Made by a program: the position numbers and the translations under genes. Positions 32,220 through 33,263 of a stretch of DNA of 64,000 nucleotides are shown here, piece by piece (position 1 is the first letter of the stretch; every line of letters begins with the position of its first letter). This DNA is from Flavobacterium sp. KACC 22763 (lineage in GTDB: Bacteria > Bacteroidota > Bacteroidia > Flavobacteriales > Flavobacteriaceae). The DNA lies in the NCBI RefSeq assembly GCF_028736155.1, contig NZ_CP117879.1, positions 3,410,001 to 3,474,000 on the forward strand. Reading direction: 5' to 3'. The notes under the pieces are model-generated. The model did no database searches and was not told where the DNA came from. It saw only the letters and a program-made list of their open reading frames with translations.

Positions 32220-32294
32220 CGGGGTGTAGCGTAGCCCGGTTATCGCGCCTGCTTTGGGAGCAGGAGGCCGCAGGTTCGAATCCTGCCACCCCGA
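32220..32294 (+). tRNA. tRNA-Pro (anticodon TGG)
   Basis: It folds as a canonical tRNA: acceptor CGGGGTG/CACCCCG, D arm GCG...CGC, anticodon stem CCTGC/GCAGG with loop TTTGGGA (anticodon TGG), 5-nt variable loop, T arm GCAGG-TTCGAAT-CCTGC, discriminator A. CCA is not encoded. It is the only intact copy in a tandem array in which two degenerate copies follow, each after a GIY-YIG gene. Confidence 0.97.
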
Positions 32295-32295
32295 C

Positions 32296-32327
32296 AAAAG
32301 CCGAACAGAAATGTTCGGCTTTTTTGT
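32296..32327 (+). terminator. Terminator after tRNA-Pro
   Basis: The 12-bp stem AAAAGCCGAACA/TGTTCGGCTTTT with a GAAA tetraloop is followed by T residues. The same hairpin is duplicated at 32661-32692. Confidence 0.9.
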
Positions 32328-32341
32328 TTAAAATCTATTTT

Positions 32342-32593
32342 ATGTTTTTCGTTTATATTCTTTACAGCACTACCAAGGAAAAGTTCTACATCGGTCAAAC
32401 AAATGATATCGAAGACAGACTTAGAAGACACAATAACGGACAATCATTATCTACAAAAAATGGTGCTCCATGGAAAATCATTTATACAATTCAATTAGAC
32501 TCAAGGTCTGAAGCAGTGACTTTGGAAAACAAAATAAAAAAACGTGGCGCAAAAAGATATCTTCAAGACATAAATTTTGAATATCAACTGTAG
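32342..32593 (+). CDS. GIY-YIG nuclease family protein, copy 1
   Basis: An 83-residue single-domain GIY-YIG protein: VYILYS and FYIGQT form the signature strands, DIEDRLRRHN carries the catalytic Arg region, and VTLENKIKKRG the metal-binding Glu. These domains cut DNA with one metal ion; small stand-alone versions are common in Bacteroidota, and their role is unsettled. The last Leu codon and the TAG stop are supplied by the next tRNA-derived segment. An ORF reading through the tRNA from 32180 exists but is not the likely start. The protein is identical to copy 2. Confidence 0.9.
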   Translation: MFFVYILYSTTKEKFYIGQTNDIEDRLRRHNNGQSLSTKNGAPWKIIYTIQLDSRSEAVTLENKIKKRGAKRYLQDINFEYQL

Positions 32594-32659
32594 CGTAGAA
32601 CGGTTATCGCGTCCCGCCTTAAAGCGGGATGGCCGCAGGTTCGAATCCTGCCACCCCGA
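32589..32659 (+). pseudogene. Degenerate tRNA-Pro copy (no 5' acceptor strand)
   Basis: It matches the intact tRNA from nucleotide 6 to the end, but lacks the 5' acceptor strand. Its anticodon arm is replaced by the near-palindrome TCCCGCCTTAAAGCGGGA (32612-32629), and the D loop has CC changed to AA. The T arm and 3' CACCCCGA are intact. It cannot form an acceptor stem, so it is not a working tRNA. Confidence 0.85.
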
Positions 32660-32660
32660 C

Positions 32661-32692
32661 AAAAGCCGAACAGAAATGTTCGGCTTTTTTGT
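32661..32692 (+). terminator. Terminator after the first degenerate tRNA copy
   Basis: An identical copy of the AAAAGCCGAACA-GAAA-TGTTCGGCTTTT hairpin found after the intact tRNA, carried along in the tandem duplication. Confidence 0.85.
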
Positions 32693-32707
32693 TTAAAATC
32701 TATTTTT

Positions 32708-32959
32708 ATGTTTTTCGTTTATATTCTTTACAGCACTACCAAGGAAAAATTCTACATCGGTCAAACAAATGATATCGAAGACAGACTTAGAAGGCACAAT
32801 AACGGACAATCATTATCTACAAAAAATGGTGCTCCATGGAAAATCATTTATACAATTCAATTAGACTCAAGGTCTGAAGCAGTGACTTTGGAAAACAAAA
32901 TAAAAAAACGTGGTGCAAAAAGATATCTTCAAGACATAAATTTTGAATATCAACTGTAG
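32708..32959 (+). CDS. GIY-YIG nuclease family protein, copy 2
   Basis: The 83-residue product is identical to copy 1; the genes differ by three synonymous changes (aag/aaa Lys, aga/agg Arg, ggc/ggt Gly). Silent-only divergence points to either recent duplication or selection on the protein. Its TAG stop again comes from the following tRNA-derived segment. Confidence 0.9.
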   Translation: MFFVYILYSTTKEKFYIGQTNDIEDRLRRHNNGQSLSTKNGAPWKIIYTIQLDSRSEAVTLENKIKKRGAKRYLQDINFEYQL

Positions 32960-33038
32960 CGTAGAACGGTTATCGCGTCCCGCCTTAAAGCGGGAAGGCC
33001 GCAGGTTCTCCCGAAAGCTTTCGGGACTGCCACCCCGA
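32955..33038 (+). pseudogene. Second degenerate tRNA-Pro copy with two palindromes
   Basis: Like the first degenerate copy it lacks the 5' acceptor strand and has TCCCGCCTTAAAGCGGGA in place of the anticodon arm (32978-32995). In addition, GAATC of the T loop/stem is replaced by the perfect 18-nt palindrome TCCCGAAAGCTTTCGGGA (33009-33026). The 3' CTGCCACCCCGA remains. Confidence 0.85.
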
Positions 33039-33039
33039 C

Positions 33040-33076
33040 AAAAGTCTTTTCATTTATTTAAAAAGACTTTTTTTTG
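33040..33076 (+). terminator. Terminator at the end of the tRNA/GIY-YIG array
   Basis: The stem AAAAGTCTTTT/AAAAGACTTTT (33040-33050, 33061-33071) is followed by more T residues. It differs from the terminator in units 1 and 2 and marks the right border of the array. Confidence 0.75.
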
Positions 33077-33150: not shown

Positions 33151-33263
33151 TTCGCCACGAATTCACGAATTTTCTTTTTAAATACTTTATCTAATATTAT
33201 TCGAATTAATTCGAATAAATAATCGCGAAGATTTGAAAAAATAATTCGTGAATTCGTGGCGAA
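33151..33263. repeat. CGAATT-word inverted repeat, copy 2 (21-bp perfect arms)
   Basis: The arms 33151-33171 and 33243-33263 are perfect 21-bp inverted copies beginning TTCGCCACGAATTCACGAAT. The inner part is AT-rich with a shorter TTCGAATTAATTCGAA palindrome near 33199. The element lies between the tRNA/GIY-YIG array and the convergent beta-helix gene. Confidence 0.85.

Follow-up and report, generated by a model that had tools for sequence, protein, structure and literature searches.

Why should an intact tRNA gene be followed by a series of damaged copies of itself, each adjoining a gene for a putative nuclease? The question is raised by a tRNA-Pro(TGG) locus of Flavobacterium sp. KACC 22763, which lies in a stretch of 64,000 nucleotides (contig NZ_CP117879.1, positions 3,410,001 to 3,474,000), referred to here as the window. 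On the evidence below, the locus looks like an apparently undescribed selfish element, bound to a tRNA gene and encoding a putative nuclease.

The array at tRNA-Pro(TGG) and its protein

The first-pass annotation described a tandem array of two units of about 365 bp downstream of the intact tRNA-Pro, and this proved to be real; the units stand head to tail at a distance of 365–366 bp, and their direct repeats are spaced 364–366 bp apart (Table 1). Each unit consists of a terminator-like hairpin, a gene for an 83-aa GIY-YIG protein and a displaced copy of tRNA-Pro. The two genes, reported as identical, encode identical proteins and agree at 249 of 252 nucleotides; the stop codon of the first falls inside the displaced tRNA-Pro copy. 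The units were also said to carry tRNA nucleotides 6–75. The displaced copies are indeed present, and the first is scored as a tRNA by Rfam (36.6 bits), but they are not simple fragments: in both, an unrelated hairpin (TCCCG..CGGGA, TCCCGCCTTAAAGCGGGA) is an exact substitute for the anticodon arm. The first displaced copy retains its own T-loop, while that of the closing copy holds a second hairpin. The pattern TCCCGN{2,14}CGGGA occurs at three sites in the window, all within the array, against an expectation of 0.06. A second tRNA-Pro elsewhere in the genome is identical to the intact tRNA-Pro of the array, and a terminator-like stretch of the type that closes the array is also found 3' of tRNA-Pro in relatives without the GIY-YIG gene.

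Table 1. Features of the tRNA-Pro(TGG) array, in window positions
Feature	Position	Strand	Evidence
Intact tRNA-Pro(TGG), anchor of array	32220..32295	+	ARAGORN; Rfam RF00005, 69.2 bits
Unit 1 terminator-like hairpin	32296..32323	+	terminator scan
GIY-YIG gene copy 1, 83 aa	32342..32593	+	open reading frame; catalytic columns conserved
Displaced tRNA-Pro copy, tRNA positions 6-76, anticodon arm replaced	32589..32660	+	
Hairpin TCCCGCCTTAAAGCGGGA replacing anticodon arm of displaced copy	32612..32629	+	palindrome and flank scans
Unit 2 terminator-like hairpin	32661..32688	+	terminator scan
GIY-YIG gene copy 2, protein same as copy 1	32708..32959	+	
Closing tRNA-Pro copy, hairpins replacing anticodon arm and within T-loop	32955..33039	+	
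Hairpin replacing anticodon arm of closing copy	32978..32995	+	palindrome and flank scans
Hairpin TCCCGAAAGCTTTCGGGA within T-loop of closing copy	33009..33026	+	palindrome and flank scans
Terminator-like stretch 3' of array	33040..33076	+	read by eye; terminator scan did not detect

No sigma-70-like promoter was found on the + strand between 32100 and 33150, by a scan whose model leaves Bacteroidota promoters outside, and the GIY-YIG gene may therefore be transcribed by read-through from tRNA-Pro. No integrase gene was found in the repeated units; GIY-YIG is the sole gene there, and an integrase-borne element was rejected on these grounds. A group I intron in the tRNA was also rejected, as none appears among the 18 Rfam matches (E up to 1) between 31900 and 33300 and the tRNA-Pro is intact. 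Just past the array, at 33151–33263, there is a 33-nt inverted repeat, 91% complementary, with 47 nt between its arms; related letters recur around the dispersed palindrome of locus L066.

The 83-aa protein matches Pfam PF01541 (E = 8e-17), and Y5, Y16, G18, R26, H30 and E62, among which we take the catalytic residues to lie, are invariant across 23 diverse family members. By domain and conserved residues it is a GIY-YIG endonuclease, with predicted activity; the Pfam scan found no extra DNA-binding domain in it. Its nearest solved structures are UPF0213 proteins (1zg2, 1ywl) and SLX1, as judged by sequence profile; its closest family members are annotated as GIY-YIG nuclease or domain protein, putative endonuclease or hypothetical protein. 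The gene is under purifying selection (dN/dS 0.05–0.14 in 13 pairs, with dS saturated in two further pairs).

The family was present in 170 of 296 sampled Bacteroidota genomes (E 1e-14), some of which had up to 17 matches, and a relative was found in 39 of 150 Flavobacterium genomes at E 1e-12; a scan of genome contigs returned 55 loci. With the window protein as query, phages yielded 10 records, all from Rhizobium phages (about 40% identity), and plasmids yielded zero matches; with a Rhizobium phage protein as query, 68 plasmid records were matched. In the one Rhizobium phage record inspected, the GIY-YIG gene did not adjoin a tRNA. The window's own genome also has a second, distant GIY-YIG gene (L003, C1:4441219-4441446; 31% identity), which adjoins two tRNA-Asn genes and has 3' of it a tRNA-Asn fragment broken by CCCCGATAGCTATCGGGG. 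At another place in this genome (L004, C1:3509024-3509239) a GIY-YIG gene lies between GGCTTCGACTCCGCTCAGCCTGAC-type repeats, and tRNA is absent from the 3.2 kb fetched.

Related loci, their tRNA genes and their hairpins

If the association is general, relatives should adjoin tRNA genes and fragments of them, as the first-pass annotation had anticipated, and both were found. In a first set of 100 related loci, 82 had a tRNA gene within 200 bp, representing 19 anticodons; this lay upstream in 66, downstream in 10 and inside the array in 6, and was on the same strand in 81. For the rest, a tRNA was present at 201–500 bp in 3 and absent in 15, 7 of which have less than 250 bp of fetched sequence on one side. 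This set is redundant in places (L077, L078 and L080 repeat L009, L010 and L013, and L167 is the L084 array). A second, phylum-wide set, drawn after the idea was formed, had a tRNA within 200 bp in 75 of 89 loci, all 75 on the same strand and representing 21 anticodons, with 3 more at 201–500 bp and none in 11; these 89 were the best-scoring matches among those listed, and weak members are therefore under-sampled. Over both sets, 157 of 189 loci were tRNA-linked (within 200 bp), 156 of them on the same strand; we estimate that about 1% of random genes would have a tRNA within this distance. Tandem copies occurred at 17 of the 100 first-set loci and at 28 of the 89 in the second. The final GIY-YIG match of the L196 array (G439) extends over the 5' end of an intact tRNA-Ser gene. 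Since the genome is a single contig of 5.56 Mb and the same arrangement recurs in other genomes, an assembly artefact, the caveat attached to the original description, is unlikely and was set aside.

With intact tRNAs masked beforehand, the gene flanks were searched for partial copies of their neighbouring tRNA. Such a copy beat all 60 shuffles in 147 of 157 tRNA-linked loci (75 of 82 in the first set, 72 of 75 in the second), and the margin over shuffles was at least 10 in 68 and 63 loci respectively. Two layouts were seen, either intact tRNA, gene and 3' fragment, or 5' fragment, gene and intact tRNA. The notion that junctions fall at a fixed tRNA position (TGTAG) had to be abandoned, because homology in the relatives begins at many tRNA positions.

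The replacement of tRNA arms by hairpins, which was new beyond the first-pass annotation, also recurred. The scan of the first set covered 86 loci, 74 with a tRNA, and found a hairpin in cognate tRNA flanks in 57 of the 74; 67 of its 96 hairpins were exact anticodon-arm replacements. In the second set, 61 of 78 loci with a tRNA had such a hairpin, and 38 of 114 hairpins (in 24 loci) were exact anticodon-arm replacements, 22 of these starting with TCCCG or CCCCG. Reversed sequences, run as controls, produced 4 hairpins (4 loci) for the first set and 9 (8 loci) for the second, with 0 exact replacements. Flank thresholds were 13/16 for these counts, 14 for the analysis of replaced intervals and 12 for the scan of gene-less tRNA-Pro loci described below. 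The replaced interval depended on the tRNA. Pro, Ala and Gln lineages have the anticodon arm replaced and the Asp lineage the T-arm: for tRNA-Asp an identical T-arm interval was replaced in 11 of 14 loci, and 502 of 602 pairs of the same tRNA type had their replaced interval in common (shuffled maximum 357; shared descent remains in these shuffles), as did 100 of 178 pairs when Pro(TGG) and Ala(GGC) were left out (shuffled maximum 86). At L102, L244, L170 and L020, copies of tRNA-Arg or tRNA-Met have a different palindrome type (CCTGTCTGCCGACAGGCAGG- or CCTGCCTGCCGCAGGCAGG-like) cleanly inserted in their D-arm region, with no tRNA bases lost; at L170 the insertion site was observed and the hairpin letters were not.

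A second new observation was that each protein lineage keeps to one tRNA type. On a tree of 146 proteins, many forks of which are unresolved for so short a protein, 50 changes of tRNA type were required, against a shuffled minimum of 85. In 51 of 121 cases the anticodon was also that of the nearest relative from another family, where shuffles gave 9.7 on average and 22 at most; shared descent again remains in both sets of shuffles. One group of 11 rows (support 84), drawn from Bacteroidota, Ignavibacteriota, Moraniibacteriota and Altimarinota, was Gln throughout but for a single Pro row and a single row without a label; Pro and Ala each formed one large group plus stray rows, and Val was spread over several groups. 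Lineages of the same tRNA type occur across different families and phyla. Genomes whose arrays lie at more than one tRNA type provided 37 paralogues for comparison: in 21 the closest protein elsewhere had the same anticodon, and a paralogue from the same genome was closer in only 1. Judged from these sequences, protein lineages track tRNA type more than host genome, if imperfectly.

Loci without the gene and the readings compared

Nine fetched loci share the window's trxB flank and have no GIY-YIG gene. Seven of these (L141, L143, L147, L149, L151, L155, L158) hold hairpin-bearing tRNA-Pro copies; the copy at L145 was read as decayed, and L157 has none. At L149, where the part of trxB compared is 97.0% identical, the closing copy of the window is present and the gene absent. 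Among 50 tRNA-Pro loci, 41 had neither gene nor displaced copy, 8 had a displaced copy alone and one (L159) had both, its gene match lying at the locus edge and adjoining tRNA-Arg; the 8 comprise the seven trxB-linked loci of close relatives and L134, which has a hairpin-bearing tRNA-Arg copy elsewhere. Displaced copies as a general trait of tRNA loci were rejected, being absent from 41 of 49 gene-less tRNA-Pro loci. Several genomes with gene-less copies hold a GIY-YIG gene at other tRNAs. Hairpin-bearing tRNA-Ala(TGC) copies without the gene were also seen at L161–L164 (G022), in one to three copies with an 80-bp period; they follow Ile-Ala tRNA pairs with no terminator seen between, and are not an unbiased sample because they were found through a palindrome search.

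In 10 pairs, GIY-YIG identity was higher than trxB identity in 4 and lower in 6. The two are alike, and so there is no sign of recent transfer at the window locus, which argues for probable descent with loss rather than recent homing. The original suggestion of a homing-like or recombination-driven cassette is still the best reading; recent horizontal homing at this locus is not supported.

That reading, to which we give about an even chance, is of a tRNA-type-specific, selfish GIY-YIG nuclease of the homing type, with the unit duplicated by recombination between tRNA copies. Cleavage by the nuclease would fall in an arm or loop of the cognate tRNA gene. By analogy with SegB (see below), homologous repair using the tRNA copies would then duplicate the unit, and one intact tRNA would be kept for the cell to remain viable. 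In each displaced copy a GC-rich hairpin would have taken the place of the arm that the nuclease recognises, and would thereby mark that arm; where the gene was later lost by recombination, the displaced copy would be left as its footprint. The main difficulty is that the intact tRNA beside the gene and the identical second tRNA-Pro would remain targets, and, since the first displaced copy retains its T-loop, it is not simply an uncuttable copy. A home-and-rescue system with a recoded rescue tRNA was rejected, the intact tRNA-Pro being identical to its own second copy and to the copies of gene-less genomes. Also against a homing nuclease are the 18 of 100 and 14 of 89 loci with no tRNA within 200 bp, the displaced copies without a gene at L134 and L161–L164, the similar divergence of GIY-YIG and trxB, and the lack of an extra Pfam DNA-binding domain. 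If it is true, bacteria have many chromosomal nucleases that are each matched to one tRNA gene, and these reshape tRNA neighbourhoods and leave recognisable footprints.

The best surviving alternative, though unlikely, is that an ordinary host nuclease gene came to lie beside tRNAs by chance and that the displaced copies are decayed tandem duplicates. The similar divergence of gene and flank is consistent with this, as is the decay of the copy at L145, but neutral decay would not be expected to involve more than 20 tRNA types, to produce lineages that track tRNA type or to replace an arm exactly with a similar hairpin.

Slightly less probable is an enzyme that installs or moves short, GC-rich, REP-like palindromes, on the model of the RAYT transposases that reportedly move GTAG-type REPs (available part of PMC3733652); tRNA arms would be favoured landing sites because they are themselves hairpins. 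The same part of that source reports CGTC REPs from Bacteroidetes and Chlorobi, for which no transposase is known. In keeping with such an enzyme, 126 of 174 hairpins start with TCCCG or CCCCG whatever the tRNA, and the genome of the window has 80 sites of TCCCGN{2,14}CGGGA, against 2 for the reversed pattern. The commonest palindrome among the places listed was TCCCGATAGCTATCGGGA, of 18 bp, dispersed in this genome (e.g., L062–L076); at L075 and L076 it is seemingly flanked by a short duplication, GCAA. Palindromes are also denser near the gene (168 in 67.3 kb, or 2.50/kb) than in the outer flanks (146 in 277 kb, or 0.53/kb), and lie near it in 76 of 85 loci, a count that includes terminators and the hairpins of displaced copies. 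A RAYT partner was rejected, there being no TCCCG palindrome in the 3.2–3.3 kb around each of the genome's four Y1 tyrosine-transposase loci. The relatives by sequence profile include SLX1, a structure-specific nuclease, and of seven proteobacterial or phage relatives, read by eye, two have the gene between REP-like palindromic repeats (L182, Sinorhizobium meliloti pSymB; L183, Methylobacterium). However, the other five have no such repeats, and palindromes did not differ in density between the 39 Flavobacterium genomes that carry the gene (10.7/Mb) and the 111 that lack it (9.7/Mb; p = 0.40). The family is a testable candidate mover of CGTC-type palindromes, a question that the available part of PMC3733652 leaves open. 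A wider proposal, and a shade more doubtful, is that CGTC/TCCCG-type palindromes have their missing nuclease in this family, which would exchange DNA hairpins for one another, chiefly at tRNA arms; the tRNA arrays would then be autonomous versions of a mobile element that swaps hairpins and differs from any known transposon.

It is improbable to a further degree that the arrays are kept for a benefit to the host, with the nuclease promoting a tandem amplification that raises tRNA copy number, for dosage or against defence systems. Tandem arrays and purifying selection fit this, and there is a precedent in SegB, whose amplification raises tRNA copy number against Septu (available part of PMC13096335), but the window and the arrays inspected each have a single intact tRNA; the amplified copies are broken tRNAs, and functional tRNA dosage therefore does not rise. 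The least probable reading, that the displaced copies are functional RNAs such as decoys or processing signals, draws on two-sided changes in the hairpin stems of tRNA-Pro copies (16 cells, score 0.266 versus 0.057 shuffled, 0/500, in rows that were chosen for pairing), on one L164 copy that folds better than shuffles (z = -3.3) and on the unterminated position of the L161–L164 copies after an Ile-Ala tRNA pair, but two of the five measures, the counts of two-sided pairs and of additional pair types, were no higher than in shuffles, and the copies inspected are missing either their 5' acceptor strand or a large part of their 3' half.

Comparison with known systems

Integrative elements in tRNA genes leave displaced tRNA 3' fragments, and integron cassettes consist of a gene plus a hairpin site, in tandem. 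The array differs from both in having no integrase, units of only about 365 bp, and a tRNA arm swapped for a hairpin. No title or abstract among the matches listed from an open-access library describes the arrangement. REP/RAYT systems resemble the array in their short, GC-rich palindromes, but the RAYT protein is a tyrosine transposase rather than a GIY-YIG protein, and the array hairpins occupy set places within tRNA copies, unlike REPs as presented in the available part of PMC3733652.

The closest parallel is SegB of phages T4 and T6, which, like the array, has a free-standing GIY-YIG gene adjoining tRNAs and a segment amplified in tandem. According to the available part of PMC13096335, the cuts made by SegB of T6 fall within tRNA genes, and the tRNA-segB segment is amplified in tandem only with both SegB activity and recombination genes. 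Its motif RAWTSGAAC, read on the other strand, appears to us to resemble the tRNA T-loop. The comparison with the 83-aa protein is one of description; SegB belongs to a phage, whereas the window array is chromosomal. Hairpin-interrupted tRNA copies are a feature of the array, none being described for SegB in the available part of PMC13096335; and SegB, on the same partial account, favours no tRNA type, whereas the lineages of the array family each keep to one.
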